Below, piece after piece: positions 440-5,763 of a stretch of 7,156 nucleotides of DNA (its first letter is position 1; every line of letters starts with the position of its first letter). Source of the stretch: JBFLYE01 sp040756715 [NCBI: bacterium] (lineage in GTDB: Bacteria; UBA9089; UBA9088); the NCBI GenBank assembly GCA_040756715.1, contig JBFLYE010000039.1, positions 1 to 7,156 on the forward strand. The letters are read 5' to 3'. Under the pieces are notes generated by a model that ran no database searches, was not told the DNA's origin, and was given only the letters and a program-made list of their open reading frames with translations. Position numbers and translations under genes: made by a program.

Positions 440-469
440 TTGACTAAATGATAAAAGTAAAATTATACT
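440..469 (+). promoter_or_regulatory. sigma70-like promoter for the purD operon, probably leaderless
   Basis: TTGACT (440-445, five of six against TTGACA) and TATACT (464-469, five of six against TATAAT) are separated by 18 nt. Only six bases separate the -10 box from the purD ATG at 476, so the usual start distance of about 7 nt puts transcription initiation on or next to the A of the start codon. No Shine-Dalgarno sequence precedes the ATG. The boxes are seen directly; leaderless transcription is inferred. Confidence 0.75.
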
Positions 470-475
470 TTTGTT

Positions 476-1762
476 ATGAAAATTTTAATTATCGGGAATG
501 GAGGGAGGGAAGATGCCATTGGATGGAAGCTTTCCCAAAGCCCTAATGTAGATGAAATATTTGTTGCCCCTGGAAATGGTGGAACAAAAAGGTTTGGAAA
601 AAATATAGCTGTAAAGAAAAAAGACCTATTTTCTCTTTCCTCCTTTGTAAAGGAGCAAAAAATAGACCTTACCATAGTTGGACCAGAAACGCCGCTTGCT
701 AGCGGAATAGTTAATCATTGGAATGAAAAAAACCTTATGATATTTGGACCTTCAAAAGAGGCAGCACAACTTGAGACAAGCAAGGTATTTGCAAAGGAAT
801 TTATGAGAAAAAACAATATCCCAACCGCAAAATTTAAGGTATTCTCAGAGGCAGAAGAGGCATTAAAGTATATCTTTAAAAAGAAGTATCCAATTGTAAT
901 AAAAGCAGATGGTTTATGCTTTGGAAAAGGAACATTTGTCTGCGAAGACCAAAGGGAAGGAACAACAGCTATAGGGAAGATTATGGAGGAGAGAATATTT
1001 AATTCTGCGGGAGATAAGGTAATTATTGAAGATTTTATCGAGGGAGAGGAGGCTTCATATATTGCCTTTATTGAGGGAGAAAATTTTCTTTCCCTACCCA
1101 TATCCCAGGATCATAAAAGGATATTTGATGGCGATTCTGGACCAAATACAGGTGGAATGGGTGCATATTCTCCCACCAGCCTAATCACGCAAGATTTAGA
1201 GGAAAAAATAAAGAAAGATATTTTAATTCCTACAATTTCAGGTCTTCATAATCTGGGAATTGTATTTAAAGGAATTCTCTATCTTGGGCTTATTTTTAAG
1301 GATAACAATCCGTATCTTCTGGAATACAATACAAGATTTGGAGACCCAGAGACACAGGCAATAATTCCAAGATTACGCTCAGATCTTCTAATACCCATTA
1401 TGGCAACCATAGAGGGAGGGTTGAATAAGGTAAAATTAGAAGTAGATAAAAGAAAATCCCTTTGCGTGGTTCTTGCCTCCTTAGGCTATCCAGAAAATTA
1501 TGAGAAACATAAAGAAATAAAAGGTGTTTCCCAAATAAATGATAATGATATTTTTGTTTTCTATGCAGGTGTGGAGGATAGGGAGGGAAAGCTCCTTACC
1601 TCTGGTGGAAGGGTATTGGGAATAACAGGATTAGGAAATACTATAAAATCCGCAAAAACAAAGGTTTATAATGCAATATCTAATGTAAAATATGAAAATA
1701 TATATTTTAGAAGTGATATTGGAGATAGGGAGATAAAAAGGGAGGAAGAATTTAGGATTTAA
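476..1762 (+). CDS. purD: Phosphoribosylamine-glycine ligase (GAR synthetase)
   Basis: PurD joins 5-phosphoribosylamine and glycine using ATP, the second step of purine synthesis, in the cytoplasm. The 428-aa length is normal for the family. The N-terminal dinucleotide-fold-like motif GNGGREDAIGWKL is at residues 8-19. ATP-grasp signatures follow: KADGLCFGKG (143-152), EGEEAS (189-194), DHKRIFDGDSGPNTGGMGAY (212-231) and YNTRFGDPETQ (284-294). The family normally reads GGREHA near the N-terminus; here residue 13 is Asp instead of His. The glycine-rich KADGLCFGKG also differs from the usual KADGLAAGKG. The start is fixed by the canonical MKILIIGNGG N-terminus and the abutting promoter. It is the first gene of a tightly packed seven-gene run, with no other pur gene in view. 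The stop codon directly touches the next ATG. Confidence 0.96.
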   Translation: MKILIIGNGGREDAIGWKLSQSPNVDEIFVAPGNGGTKRFGKNIAVKKKDLFSLSSFVKEQKIDLTIVGPETPLASGIVNHWNEKNLMIFGPSKEAAQLETSKVFAKEFMRKNNIPTAKFKVFSEAEEALKYIFKKKYPIVIKADGLCFGKGTFVCEDQREGTTAIGKIMEERIFNSAGDKVIIEDFIEGEEASYIAFIEGENFLSLPISQDHKRIFDGDSGPNTGGMGAYSPTSLITQDLEEKIKKDILIPTISGLHNLGIVFKGILYLGLIFKDNNPYLLEYNTRFGDPETQAIIPRLRSDLLIPIMATIEGGLNKVKLEVDKRKSLCVVLASLGYPENYEKHKEIKGVSQINDNDIFVFYAGVEDREGKLLTSGGRVLGITGLGNTIKSAKTKVYNAISNVKYENIYFRSDIGDREIKREEEFRI

Positions 1763-2096: not shown

Positions 2097-2294
2097 ATGA
2101 AAAAAGCAATGGTTGGGATAAAGGTTTATGACAATGAATCCTTAGACAATGCCTTAAGAAGATTCAAAAGAAAATGCCTTGAGGAAGGAATAACAGAGGA
2201 GCTTAAAAAACGGGCATATTATGATAAACCTTCTGTGAGAAGAAAAAAGAAAAGCGTGCTTGCTCGTAAAAAAAGATGGGCAATTATTTATTAA
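2097..2294 (+). CDS. rpsU: Small ribosomal subunit protein bS21
   Basis: bS21 is a small basic protein of the 30S subunit that sits near the 3' end of 16S rRNA and helps initiation. The core [20 protein letters not shown] (6-25) is the family signature, followed by a basic tail rich in Lys and Arg (49-60). The length of 65 aa fits. Two starts are possible: ATG 2097, or ATG 2109 (Met5), which gives [11 protein letters not shown], the N-terminus most bS21 proteins have. Neither has a clear nearby Shine-Dalgarno; 2097 is favoured by its one-base gap after the HIT stop, consistent with translational coupling. It is embedded in the purD-xerD operon between HIT and parA. Confidence 0.95.
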
Positions 2295-2305: not shown

Positions 2306-3079
2306 ATGGGGAAAATTATTGCGATTGCTAACCAAAAGGGTGGCGTGGGAAAGACCACAACTTGTGTTAATTTAGGAGCAGGAATTTCCTCTTTGGGTTA
2401 TAAAACCTTAATTATAGATATGGATCCCCAAGCAAATGCAAGCATCCATCTGGATATTTCAATTCATAAATTAAACCATTCAATGTATGATGTTTTAATT
2501 TCACAAGATATAAAACTATCCGATATAATTCTTAAAACATCCGTTTCTAAATTAGATGTAGCCCCATCACATATCAATCTCTCTGGAGCAGAGATAGAAC
2601 TTGTCAATATGATTGGAAGGGAGAGGGTTTTAAAAGAGAAGGTAGAGGAAATAATAGACAGCTATGATTATATTTTGATTGATTGCCCACCTTCACTTGG
2701 GCTTCTTACCCTAAATTCATTGACCACCGCACAATATCTGATTATACCCCTTCAGACAGAATTTTTTGCCCTAGAGGGAATAGATAAGCTTATAAGGACA
2801 ATTGAGATTGTAAAGAATAAGTTAAATCATAGCCTTGAAATTTTAAGTATAGTTCCTACCCTCTATACAGAGAAAACAAAGCTTGCAAAAGAGGCTTTAG
2901 AAAAGATTACGGGTTATTTTAAAAACAATGTTTCCAAAACAAGGATAAGGAGAAATGTAAAGCTTGCTGAGTCTCCATCGCATGGAATGCCCATAATGCT
3001 CTATGCACCAAGGTCATATGGAACAATTGATTATCACGACCTTTCTAAAGAAATTGTTAAAAAAACAATAAAAGTCTAA
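2306..3079 (+). CDS. parA: ParA/Soj-family chromosome-partition ATPase
   Basis: This is a deviant-Walker ATPase that forms ATP-dependent dimers on DNA and moves or segregates a partner-bound cargo, normally the ParB-parS origin region. The 257-aa length is that of chromosomal Soj proteins, with no N-terminal helix-turn-helix of plasmid type Ia ParA. The deviant Walker A KGGVGKTT is at 11-18 (signature K11, catalytic-loop K16). IIDMDPQAN (36-44) carries the switch I aspartates, and the Walker B-like YILIDCPPSLG is at 122-132. The conserved C-terminal block RIRRNVKLAESPSHGMPI (213-230) includes basic residues used for non-specific DNA binding. AAGG at 2297-2300, 5 nt upstream, is a plausible ribosome-binding site. 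The gene begins 11 nt after rpsU and is followed 46 nt later by a small protein with a ParB-like N-terminus rather than by a full ParB. Confidence 0.95.
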   Translation: MGKIIAIANQKGGVGKTTTCVNLGAGISSLGYKTLIIDMDPQANASIHLDISIHKLNHSMYDVLISQDIKLSDIILKTSVSKLDVAPSHINLSGAEIELVNMIGRERVLKEKVEEIIDSYDYILIDCPPSLGLLTLNSLTTAQYLIIPLQTEFFALEGIDKLIRTIEIVKNKLNHSLEILSIVPTLYTEKTKLAKEALEKITGYFKNNVSKTRIRRNVKLAESPSHGMPIMLYAPRSYGTIDYHDLSKEIVKKTIKV

Positions 3080-3125
3080 AGAGTCTATGGGGTTAAGGAA
3101 AAATGAATTTTAAGTAGAAAGACAA

Positions 3126-3476
3126 ATGAAAAAGCCTGTATTGGGAAAAGGGGCAGATGCCCTATTTGAAATAACCCAAACCGACACAAAAGGGATAGAG
3201 GAGAAGGTCTTAAGTTCTAAACTTCCGAAGTTTAGAACTTTTGAACATAGACTTACAATCCTTCTTAAAGAATCCCACCTTTCTTTTCTTTCGGGGCTTG
3301 AGAAAAAGATTATGAGAAGCAGAAACTCTAAAAACAAAAGGGAGAGGATAACAAAAAATTCAATAATCAGGGCCTGCCTTGATGCAATGGCTAATCTTCC
3401 TATCGATACATCCGAAATTCCAGATGAAAGAGAGCTTTTAAGAAGGATAGAGAGGGCAATAAATGAAAGGGCTTAA
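3126..3476 (+). CDS. Small ParA-partner candidate: ParB-like N-terminus plus RHH-like domain
   Basis: I know no named family for this 116-aa basic protein. Residues 6-14, LGKGADALF, closely match the N-terminal ParA-contact motif of Spo0J/ParB (B. subtilis Spo0J has LGKGINALF, recalled from memory). The ParB CTP-binding core and helix-turn-helix are absent. Residues 29-39 are encoded by a perfect palindrome. After it, RLTILLKESHLSFLSGLEKK (42-61) and RITKNSIIRACLDAM (74-88) resemble the strand-helix-helix of ribbon-helix-helix DNA-binding proteins, though the basic linker 63-75 is longer than usual. A charged helix ends the protein (about 100-115). The ATG is the first possible start after an in-frame stop at 3111-3113; there is no clear ribosome-binding site. 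Its position after parA suggests a DNA-binding adaptor that stimulates ParA, like the small RHH partners of plasmid ParAs. The role is inferred; a degraded or shortened ParB is the alternative. Confidence 0.65.
   Translation: MKKPVLGKGADALFEITQTDTKGIEEKVLSSKLPKFRTFEHRLTILLKESHLSFLSGLEKKIMRSRNSKNKRERITKNSIIRACLDAMANLPIDTSEIPDERELLRRIERAINERA
3212..3240. repeat. Perfect 14-nt palindrome inside the ParB-like gene
   Basis: AAGTTCTAAACTTC (3212-3225) is the exact reverse complement of GAAGTTTAGAACTT (3227-3240), around the single base C3226. It is translated in frame as residues 29-39 (LSSKLPKFRTF), in the linker between the ParB-like motif and the RHH-like domain. Its core AACTTC-N-GAAGTT and the 10-mer AAGTTTAGAA occur again at 402-427. 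It could be an inserted palindromic element, of the kind known from Rickettsia genes, or a binding site for a dimeric protein such as the one this gene encodes. Confidence 0.85.
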
Positions 3477-4083
3477 AACCTTTTGTGTAGGAGACTACGA
3501 AACAAATTGCTATCTTATCTTTAACAAGAAGAGCGCAATATTGATTGATGCAGGAGAAGGTGTAGAGCAAATTATATATTTTCTCTATTCACATAAGCTA
3601 TCCCTTAAATATATCATAAATACACATTGCCATATAGACCATATTATGGGAGATGATGAGATAAGAAAAGAGACAAAAGCAGAGCTTCTTGTCCATCTTA
3701 AAGACAAAGAAGGACTTTTTAATCCCCTTCTTAATTTATCGGGATTTTTGGGCTCTTCTATGAAATTTAAAGAAGCCACAAGAACAATTAAAGAAAATGA
3801 CATTATCACAGTGGGGGATATAAACCTTAAGGTTATTGAAACACCAGGCCATACCCCAGGCTCTATCTCCCTTCTTTTTGATGATGCTATATTTTGTGGC
3901 GATACGATATTTTCACAGGGAATAGGAAGAACAGACCTTCCAGGGGGAGACCATAAAATCTTAATAAATTCCATTAAGAAATTATTAAATTTTCCAGATA
4001 ACACAACACTTTATCCAGGACATGGAAATCCAGTAACAATAAAAGAGGCAAAATGTCAGCTTGTGAGCTTGATAAATTCATAG
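3463..4083 (+). CDS. Glyoxalase II-like metallo-beta-lactamase-fold hydrolase
   Basis: This 206-aa cytoplasmic protein is a binuclear-metal hydrolase of the glyoxalase II/YcbL-type group, which often hydrolyses thioesters such as S-lactoylglutathione or related compounds; the substrate cannot be read from the sequence. The metal site is complete: THCHIDH at 54-60 (H55, H57, D59, H60), H130 in TPGHTPGS, D147 in FCGDTIF and H187 in YPGHG. GRTDLPGGD (155-163) is typical of this subgroup. The C-terminal substrate-binding helical domain of eukaryotic-type glyoxalase II is missing, as is usual for these short forms. The start overlaps the previous gene by 14 nt and has GAGGG about 6 nt upstream. 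Its end overlaps xerD by 31 nt, so all three are probably cotranscribed and coupled. Confidence 0.93.
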   Translation: MKGLKTFCVGDYETNCYLIFNKKSAILIDAGEGVEQIIYFLYSHKLSLKYIINTHCHIDHIMGDDEIRKETKAELLVHLKDKEGLFNPLLNLSGFLGSSMKFKEATRTIKENDIITVGDINLKVIETPGHTPGSISLLFDDAIFCGDTIFSQGIGRTDLPGGDHKILINSIKKLLNFPDNTTLYPGHGNPVTIKEAKCQLVSLINS

Positions 4084-4934
4084 ATTACCTCTTATTAGAA
4101 AGGGGGTTTTCAAGGAATACAGTCTCTGCATATAGAAATGACATTAGCCATTTTATCCTTTTCCTTAAAAAAACAGCCTTTCAAGATATAGACATAAAAA
4201 TTCTTTTTAATTACTTATTAACTCTTAAAAAAAATAATCTTTCTTCAAGTAGTATATTAAGAAAAATTGCAAGCATAAGGGCATTTTTTAAATTCCTCCT
4301 TCAAGAGGGAATTATACAATCAAATCCAGCATCTTTTCTTAAATCTCAAAAAAGGGAAAGGAAACTTCCAAATTTCTTAACTTATGAGGAGATAGAAAAG
4401 CTTCTTTCTTCTCCTAATATTACAAGCAATTTGGGGATAAGAGATAAAGCATTACTTGAACTATTATACTCAACGGGAATGAGAGTCTCTGAGATTACTA
4501 AATTAAAAATTGAACAATTAAACCTTGAGCTTGGATTTGTCAGGGTATTTGGAAAAAGGGAAAAGGAAAGGATTGTTCCCATTGGAAAGGAGGCAATAAA
4601 ATATCTTAAAGTTTTTCTTCAAAAAAGGGGATGTTTTTTGAAGAAAAAAGGGGATTCTGGCTTTCTTTTTTTAAATTGGAGGGGCTCTCCTTTAACCAGG
4701 GAGGCTGTTTGGAAAATGATTAAAAGATATGGAATAATTGCTGGAATAAGAAAAAACCTATTTCCCCATATCATTAGGCATTCATTTGCCACGCACCTTT
4801 TAAGAAATAAGGCTGATCTTAGGGTAATTCAAGAATTACTTGGACATTCTGATATATCAACCACCCAAATTTATACACACCTTGACAGCAATACAATGAA
4901 GGAATTTCATAAAAGATATCATCCAAGAGCATAA
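4053..4934 (+). CDS. xerD: Tyrosine recombinase XerD (XerC/D family)
   Basis: Xer recombinases resolve chromosome dimers at dif near the terminus. The protein has 293 aa, normal for the family. The N-terminal SAM-like core-binding domain spans about 3-90 (with ERGFSRNTVSAYRNDI at 16-31). The catalytic domain has R144 in TGMRVSE, K168 in the GKREKER beta-hairpin, H239 and R242 in FPHIIRHSFATHLL, H265 in LLGHSDISTTQIYTH, and the nucleophile Y274. The LGHSDISTTQIYTH block is more XerD-like than XerC-like. The common TLRHS reads IIRHS here. The start overlaps the hydrolase gene by 31 nt and is supported by GAGG 4 nt upstream. It is the last gene of the operon and, like parA, concerns chromosome inheritance. 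It could serve as the sole Xer protein; I cannot tell from this window. Confidence 0.93.
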   Translation: MSACELDKFIDYLLLERGFSRNTVSAYRNDISHFILFLKKTAFQDIDIKILFNYLLTLKKNNLSSSSILRKIASIRAFFKFLLQEGIIQSNPASFLKSQKRERKLPNFLTYEEIEKLLSSPNITSNLGIRDKALLELLYSTGMRVSEITKLKIEQLNLELGFVRVFGKREKERIVPIGKEAIKYLKVFLQKRGCFLKKKGDSGFLFLNWRGSPLTREAVWKMIKRYGIIAGIRKNLFPHIIRHSFATHLLRNKADLRVIQELLGHSDISTTQIYTHLDSNTMKEFHKRYHPRA

Positions 4935-5001: not shown

Positions 5002-5763
5002 ATGGCATATACAATTGCTGTAGCGGGAAAGGGAGGTTGTGGAAAGACAACAATCACAAGCCTTATAATCAACTATCTTCTTTCCTTAAAAAAAGGCTCT
5101 ATCCTTGCGGTTGATGCAGATCCCTCCTTTAACCTCCATTTCCTTTTGGGAATGGATGCTCCTAAAACACTTGGCCAATTAAAGGAGTCTGCGAAGAAGG
5201 ATAAACCCAATTCAATGGACTTATTCTCATTCCTTGAATATGGGACAAATATGGCAATAGATGAGGGAAAAATTGACCTTTTGGCTATGGGAAGAAAAGA
5301 GGGGAAGGGGTGCTATTGCTCGGTTAATAATGCCTTAAGGGAGGTATTAAACAAAATTGCAAAATCCTATAATTATATTGTTATTGACAATGAGGCAGGG
5401 ATTGAGCATATAAGCAGGCAGACAGATGCAAGCGTTAACCTTATGTTTATTGTTATTGATCCTTGTTTGAGAAGCCTCATAACAGCCAAAACCATAATAA
5501 ACCTTATAAAAGAGCTTGAAAATGATGTAAGTAAGGTTTGTTTGATTGGAAATAAGATGGACAAAATACCCAATTGGCTTAAAATGGATATTCCATTTTT
5601 AGGCTGTATTCCATTCGATCCAATGCTTCAAAAATACGAGGAAGAAAACCTTTCCTTCCTTTCTTTTCCAGAAACATCCTTATCATATCAGGCATTAAAA
5701 AAGATATGCGTTCAGGTATTAGGGGAAAGCGATGAAGAAAGAGCACCAGGGCCCCACTCATAG
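5002..5763 (+). CDS. cooC: CooC-type nickel-insertion ATPase for carbon monoxide dehydrogenase
   Basis: CooC-type ATPases use ATP to load nickel into the Ni-Fe-S cluster of anaerobic CO dehydrogenase. The 253-aa length fits. The deviant Walker A GKGGCGKTT is at 9-17 (K10, K15), and VDADPSFNL (37-45) is the switch I region. The CxC of GCYCSVNNALR (103-113; C104 and C106) is the CooC metal-binding pair at the dimer interface. IVIDNEAGIEHISRQT (126-141) is the Walker B and switch II block. These features separate it from ParA, MinD and NifH. The C-terminal tail ERAPGPHS looks low in conservation, and its stop codon lies at the edge of an inverted repeat. No CODH subunit gene is in the window. 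The gene follows xerD after a repeat-like spacer and may have its own promoter, which I could not identify. AcsF, the acetyl-CoA synthase factor of the same family, is an alternative. Confidence 0.88.
   Translation: MAYTIAVAGKGGCGKTTITSLIINYLLSLKKGSILAVDADPSFNLHFLLGMDAPKTLGQLKESAKKDKPNSMDLFSFLEYGTNMAIDEGKIDLLAMGRKEGKGCYCSVNNALREVLNKIAKSYNYIVIDNEAGIEHISRQTDASVNLMFIVIDPCLRSLITAKTIINLIKELENDVSKVCLIGNKMDKIPNWLKMDIPFLGCIPFDPMLQKYEEENLSFLSFPETSLSYQALKKICVQVLGESDEERAPGPHS

Follow-up and report, generated by a model that had tools for sequence, protein, structure and literature searches.

The window, by which we mean the whole stretch of 7,156 nucleotides analyzed here, corresponds to contig C39 in a draft genome of 1.55 Mb, which comprises 218 contigs and is 96% complete. 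It contains a gene string that includes parA and, just downstream, a small gene that we call the partner. The following features were annotated.

299-371: tRNA-Phe
378-433, no strand: octad array 1, seven contiguous repeats, five with exact cores, between tRNA-Phe and the operon promoter
440-469, plus strand: sigma-70-like promoter TTGACT-18-TATACT, right after array 1 (consensus match only)
476-1762, plus strand: gene for a 428-residue protein, first of the gene string, which we take to be purD-like
1763-2095: presumably a HIT-like gene
2097-2294, plus strand: rpsU (ribosomal protein S21; Pfam E 8.7e-19), a housekeeping gene directly 5' of parA
2306-3079, plus strand: parA, Soj-type deviant-Walker ATPase, 257 residues (AAA_31, E 9.7e-66)
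3126-3476, plus strand: partner gene, 116 residues, with a ParB-like tip, a linker, an RHH-like body, and a C-terminal helix
3141-3167, plus strand: LGKGADALF, codons 6 to 14, putative ParB/Spo0J-like ParA-contact tip (from homologue counts and same-phylum ParB N termini)
3204-3251, no strand: octad array 2, six repeats, four of them exact (from 3212), inside the partner gene
3237-3401, plus strand: RHH-like segment, codons 38 to 92 (hhalign to RHH_1)
3463-4083, plus strand: metallo-beta-lactamase-fold hydrolase, downstream of the partner (Pfam)
4053-4934, plus strand: tyrosine recombinase (Xer-like), further downstream (Pfam)

The promoter at 440-469 was the best of seven consensus matches in 520 bases, where 1.3 are expected. 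The parA/partner pair sits among rpsU and other housekeeping-type genes, in an order that is steady in relatives, and is not plasmid-borne. The encoded ParA carries the deviant Walker A motif NQKGGVGKTT. Its best match of known structure was 8ray (E 8.9e-65), followed by chains labeled as Soj or segregation protein (E 1e-56 to 1e-44), and its similarity to Soj far exceeds that to chain 7dut (E 1.8e-16), which we take to be SegA. In a ParA tree, the window type and the A- and C-type ParAs of a second phylum (phylum 2) formed one clade, with a support of 92/92 that is just under the star mark of the tool. A second ParA-superfamily gene of the window, at 5002-5763 (AAA_31, E 1.1e-11), lies outside the module and presumably encodes a metal-cofactor ATPase of the CooC type.

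The partner protein

An earlier note, made from the sequence alone, had read the 116-residue product of the gene after parA as a compact ParA partner in which LGKGADALF, at residues 6 to 14, resembles the ParA-activating tip of Spo0J/ParB, whereas the CTPase core and the helix-turn-helix (HTH) of ParB are absent. The length, position, and motif were all confirmed, and a Pfam search of the partner retrieved neither ParB_N (PF02195) nor an HTH domain. Its two Pfam matches, DUF2605 and CDT1, were weak and below the cutoff, and the NCBIfam and PHROG searches gave no match. The 38 aligned homologues are 114 to 134 residues long, which leaves no room for a CTPase core plus the RHH-like body; none of them contains an internal stop, and ParB_N is not among the Pfam families of the homologues (25 of 33 families listed).

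The resemblance of the tip to ParB exceeds chance. The pattern LG[KRTS][GD] was found within the first 16 residues of 37 of the 38 aligned homologues, the exception being L057 with LGKN, compared with 3 of 1,290 background open reading frames (ORFs); these three include the ParB of the same genome and one homologue. Residues L6, G7, and T17 are invariant in all 38 sequences, and the alignment, which spans two phyla, has 18 invariant columns. The N terminus of the ParB of the same genome reads MKKALGRGLDVLF and that of the partner MKKPVLGKGADALF; the partner thus bears the LGKG/LGRG tip of the HTH-type ParB (Spo0J) family. The tip is conserved across the homologues, and by this likeness it would activate the ATPase.

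For the body of the partner we consider a ribbon-helix-helix (RHH) fold likely, judging from profile comparisons. Residues 38 to 92, represented by 51 homologues (the 38 paired ones plus 13 others, some of them weak), were aligned by hhalign to 24 RHH_1 domains with a probability of 61.5% (P 7.8e-5), and the strand, helix 1, and helix 2 were in register. The score of 22.8 was reached by none of 200 column shuffles, the best of which scored 16.5, and the reversed profile scored 12.4. Residues 34 to 116 gave 38.9% (P 3.2e-4; score reached by 0 of 198 shuffles), and the 38 paired members alone gave a weak match (5%, P 0.008), with 1 of 100 shuffles reaching the score. As natural controls, 21 ParA segments compared with RHH_1 gave at most 4.2%. 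AlphaFold models of the partner (two sequences; core alone) were of low confidence, with mean pLDDT values of 50 and 65, and both runs placed a helix at the position expected for the RHH strand, so that the fold is not proven. The proposal of an RHH-like domain in the earlier note is hence supported by the profile comparison but not by the structure prediction. Searches of the window family against Pfam, NCBIfam, PHROG, and PDB sequences gave nothing above the cutoff or convincing, and neither an RHH family nor an RHH chain was among the Pfam and PDB matches shown. Taken together, the 8ray match, the tip counts, and the RHH profile support the combination proposed in that note, namely, a Soj-type ParA and a small partner with a Spo0J-like tip on an RHH-like body.

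Distribution of the pair in two phyla

The partner was found in 13 of 61 genomes searched, all belonging to the phylum of the window (phylum 1; 13 of its 19 members). In all 12 loci whose upstream flank is contained in the contig, parA comes immediately before the partner; in the thirteenth carrier, G014, that flank is cut by the contig end. A profile search of 386 genomes matched 25, namely, the 13 already found plus 12 from other phyla. Two of the latter, G143 and G280, have an adjoining parA and the tip, and both belong to phylum 2; the other 10 matched in the body region only, in part weakly, and no parA was seen in their fetched flank. Within phylum 2, the partner was present in 26 of 35 genomes, with tips such as MKKTGLGKDPLSWI, and all 26 partner genes begin within a parA-like frame or at its end (the parA of G389 is cut). 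The pair is conserved in relatives from both phyla. Its outer and downstream neighbors differ between families while the pair stays, and its surroundings are steady within f1/f2 and in the phylum-2 gene order. Body homologues L038 to L042 have neither the tip nor a parA in the fetched flank, and L041 and L042 adjoin a gene that we take to be pilM-like.

Two explanations for the origin of the pair can be weighed against these data. (i) The partner could be a ParB that decayed to its N terminus and became fused fortuitously with a small domain of other origin. Its ParB-like tip and the presence of a real ParB elsewhere in the genome would fit, but conservation speaks against this idea: the 38 homologues are free of stops and share 18 columns that are invariant across the two phyla, and members of the body family also exist that have neither the tip nor, in the fetched flank, a parA. 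We regard this origin as highly improbable. (ii) A plasmid or conjugative-element module of type Ib could have been captured by the chromosome and kept for some other reason, no longer moving DNA. The conjugative Prosthecochloris plasmid pPAES01 does begin with a distant relative of the pair (ParA at 1-786, partner at 840-1253; tblastn E 0.01), but this was the one match in 72,556 plasmids, none was found in 50,697 phage records, and no relative of the partner turned up in viral contigs. Moreover, the pair is inherited in two phyla in steady surroundings, with the ATPase motif, the tip, and the sites intact, and we therefore consider such a capture quite unlikely.

Canonical ParB, parS, and paralogous ParAs

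The genome of the window encodes one canonical ParB, a protein of 263 residues on contig C126 that carries the N-terminal tip given above (MKKALGRGLDVLF) and is the sole PF02195 match of the genome. A scan for parS (TGTTTCACGTGAAACA, up to 3 mismatches) listed seven sites, compared with eight in the control; the best, with one mismatch, is inside the parB gene, and none of the seven is in the window. A complete parB and a parS site thus exist, but no ParA match was found on the parB contig, and the partner gene is intact in relatives. The classical soj of the genome is cut by contig ends (C95 and C69), and parB on C126 does not adjoin it. Among 54 genomes searched, ParB_N was found in 17 of the 19 from phylum 1, every one of the 13 pair carriers being among them, and in none of the 35 from phylum 2, 16 of which have a completeness of 90% or more and a contamination of 5% or less.

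Phylum 2 contains further Soj-type ParAs, with several paralogues per genome. In 15 of 16 stretches viewed (L166 to L181; L175 is unclear), another small protein is encoded just after parA, and 14 of these 15 have an LG- or KG[RK]G-type N terminus. The B-, C-, and D-type paralogous partners matched RHH_1 with hhalign probabilities of 94%, 73%, and 77%, respectively, and one B-type partner matched CopG_antitoxin with an E of 2.9e-4, below the curated cutoff. No hhalign link was seen between the B type and the window family (0.12%). B-type pairs, with the tip RLGPQxKKLFE, precede a gene that is presumably pilB/gspE-like, and their tip resembles the MIVGNLGAQK of omega. In the C-type ParA leaders of L170, L176, and L178, visual inspection points to another palindrome, resembling TGTAAAC..GTTTACA and clear in the latter two, as would be expected if every type of RHH partner used a separate site.

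Octad arrays

The earlier note had not mentioned two arrays of contiguous 8-bp repeats in the window, with the core AAGTT/AACTT in either orientation. The exact cores of array 1 start at 386, 394, 402, 410, and 418, and array 2 includes a perfect 14-bp inverted repeat (3212-3240) within the partner gene; the spans of 378-433 and 3204-3251 allow one mismatch. When all 5-mer cores were searched at periods of 5 to 20, only two exact runs of at least four were found in the window, both of AAGTT/AACTT at period 8. A simple palindromic box, our first guess at the site unit, was given up for octads, with half-sites recurring at intervals of exactly 8 bp. Another idea, that array 2 merely reflects the encoded peptide PKF[KR]TF, was also rejected, since random synonymous recoding produced the double box in only 2 of 50,000 cases. 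Compared with G001, codons 28 to 50 of the partner are unchanged although 30 of the 116 codons differ.

The same sites accompany parA in relatives. AAGTT-N3-AACTT was the commonest gapped palindrome (5-bp arms, spacer of 0 to 7) in the parA leaders of relatives (17 of 37). GAAGTT/AACTTC half-sites were seen in 30 of the 37 leaders of A-type parA genes (phylum 1, 7 of 12; phylum 2, 23 of 25) and in none of the 16 that precede paralogous ParAs. Over 17 sequences, 18 octad runs of the kind present in the window were found at period 8, all in 8 of the 13 sequences with an A-type parA, and none at periods 6, 7, 9, 10, 11, and 12. In the loci of about 3 kb around the 38 pairs, runs of at least three octads were present in 18 and at other periods in none, compared with 76 other loci, of which 2 had at least three at period 8 (L083, from a pair-carrying genome, and L136, fetched for its box) and one each at periods 6 and 9. 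Runs of at least four octads in the pair loci were restricted to five members of the order of the window, which are relatives of one another and thus not independent. All five share the position of array 2 inside the partner gene. In G001, G002, and G003 an array lies beside the corresponding TTGAC box, whereas the second array of G004 does not, and a third array in G003, just before parA, is identical to the in-gene double box of the window in 25 of 29 bases.

Arrays also occur away from the pair. Of 30 loci fetched for a box, 7 had period-8 runs and none had runs at periods 6, 7, 9, 10, and 11; three of the seven are pair loci, and four are on other contigs of pair carriers (G387:C49, G012:C399, G009:C36, and G002:C126). 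A 326-kb sample of the window's own genome contained one further array, on C168 (a contig chosen for the sample because it had been flagged beforehand). Contigs without the pair but from pair-carrying genomes thus bear octad arrays at G000:C168:723-762 and in L136, L152, L154, and L165. In the phylum-2 genomes G409 (9, 4, and 8 octads; C13, 12.25-12.73 kb) and G143 (8 octads; C3, 66.65 kb), arrays closely follow the 3' end of a gene that, by its motif, we take to be ppdK-like, and a shorter box lies 3' of the same gene in G391 (C7, 94.58 kb); across these three genera the distance to parA is 16 to 57 kb. The arrays are hence few and not confined to parA, a pattern that fits several centromere sites and also a regulon or a small dispersed repeat. 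Counts of AAGTTYNRAACTT over 36 genomes were not above the reversed control genome-wide, although this pattern misses many octads. A box that is merely a chance dispersed word was rejected, since octad runs were absent from 800 kb of G409 and G391 sequence on four other contigs; the arrays on some non-pair contigs of other carriers nonetheless lend a small dispersed repeat some probability. The DNA evidence ties the octad site to the locus, not to the partner protein. On G409 contigs C9, C12, and C13, the GC skew tracks the gene strand (gene means of about +0.25 and -0.25; r of 0.95 to 0.97), and an inference of the origin from the skew in G409 was therefore discarded.

The arrays could also be operators only, with an RHH-like partner that regulates its own operon and a few others while ParA moves some other cargo bound by the partner, for instance a machine for pili or secretion. 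In favor of this reading, array 1 adjoins the operon promoter, the phylum-2 boxes are in the parA leader, and several other arrays or boxes are directly followed by genes (e.g., G143:C3, 62.2 kb). The phylum-1 pair L017, like the phylum-2 B-type pairs, precedes a gene presumed to be pilB/gspE-like. Type Ib plasmid partners also act as repressors, according to the account cited (PMC5016525). Yet some arrays are away from promoters, namely, in the partner gene and 3' of the above-mentioned gene in G143 and G409; contiguous arrays of up to 9 octads exceed the need of a simple operator; and downstream neighbors vary between families while the pair is kept. In view of these points, a purely regulatory role appears rather unlikely.

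Proposed function and relation to known systems

We propose that the locus probably encodes a chromosomal three-part positioning module, composed of ParA, an RHH-type ParB, and an octad parS, that works like the type Ib (RHH) partition systems of plasmids. We infer octad binding by the partner, ATPase activation, and segregation or positioning. In this module, the partner would dimerize via its RHH-like body, and its dimers would bind contiguous octads side by side, by likeness to omega on heptads, at the module's own locus and a few other places. The LGKG tips of the clustered tails would contact nucleoid-bound ParA-ATP and trigger ATP hydrolysis, and the marked chromosomal regions would be held or moved on the ParA gradient. 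RHH partners are described as having no CTPase and not spreading, so that the array itself must supply the number of tips, and in the same source at least four contiguous heptads are needed for omega to activate ParA (PMC9499535). Binding beside the operon promoter may in addition control the expression of the module, the location of array 1 suggesting an autoregulation of the kind reported as usual for type Ib partners (PMC5016525). The presence of a canonical ParB in phylum 1 counts against this explanation.

A comparison with known systems shows the following. (i) The type Ib systems (ParF-ParG of TP228 and delta-omega of pSM19035) are, as far as the cited texts describe them, alike in combining a Walker ParA with a small partner, which has an RHH domain (probable in the window partner) and a flexible N-terminal ATPase-contact tail (putative in the window partner), and with short direct and inverted repeats near the operon, a feature present here as the two octad arrays; the omega tail begins with MIVGNLGAQK and so has an LG tip like the window partner (PMC5016525, PMC9499535). 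In contrast, the window module is chromosomal, placed among housekeeping genes, and conserved in two phyla; its repeat period is 8 instead of 7, its ParA is Soj-like, its tip is of the Spo0J type (LGKG), and sequence searches linked the partner body to no solved RHH partner. (ii) Archaeal SegA-SegB likewise pairs a chromosomal ParA homologue with a small DNA-binding partner, of the RHH class that is probable here, which in the descriptions cited recognizes palindromic motifs located 5' of the operon (PMC12284271, PMC9178275), whereas the window module is bacterial and has contiguous octads, and no chain named SegB was among the PDB matches up to an E of 10. (iii) Chromosomal ParABS (Soj/Spo0J-parS) shares the Soj-type ParA and the LGKG-type partner tip, but neither ParB_N nor HTH was found in the partner, no parS was listed in the window, and a separate ParB with parS is found on C126. 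(iv) CdbA/CdbB of Myxococcus offers a likeness in its small chromosomal RHH protein, which is important in nucleoid organization; these proteins have 67 to 86 residues, neither a ParA operon nor a tip is mentioned in the portion of the report cited, and homologues are reported there in Myxococcales only (PMC7156744).

The sources cited describe RHH partition proteins of plasmids and, in archaea, SegB (PMC9178275, PMC12284271, PMC7022226). A genome survey of 2009 had already counted ParA genes adjoining RHH genes, 54 in the table concerned (PMC2701414), and the neighborhood by itself is therefore not new. A 2016 review by Funnell assigns, in the section cited, the centromere-binding proteins of all bacterial chromosomal systems to the HTH class (PMC5002424), and no chromosomal bacterial RHH-type ParB was among the matches listed from the open-licence literature. 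If our reading is true, a conserved chromosomal RHH-type partner with its own arrays, in a phylum without detected ParB, would break the HTH-only rule of that review, and the module would be a bacterial parallel to SegAB. As a more tentative proposal, which we hold to be possible rather than probable, ParA, the RHH-type ParB, and the octad arrays might constitute the chromosome segregation system itself in phylum 2, as a bacterial counterpart of SegAB with several paralogous ParA/tip-RHH pairs per cell. The module could further be used to ask which portion of ParB is important to ParA: it retains the tip but has the CTPase, the clamp, and the HTH replaced, and DNA spreading therefore cannot be what would make the module work. 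On the plasmid that carries the distant pair, AT-rich tandem repeats with periods of 16 and 25 lie just upstream of parA (NC_011061, 66672-66732; L281, 1373-1433) and are possibly the site array of that pair.
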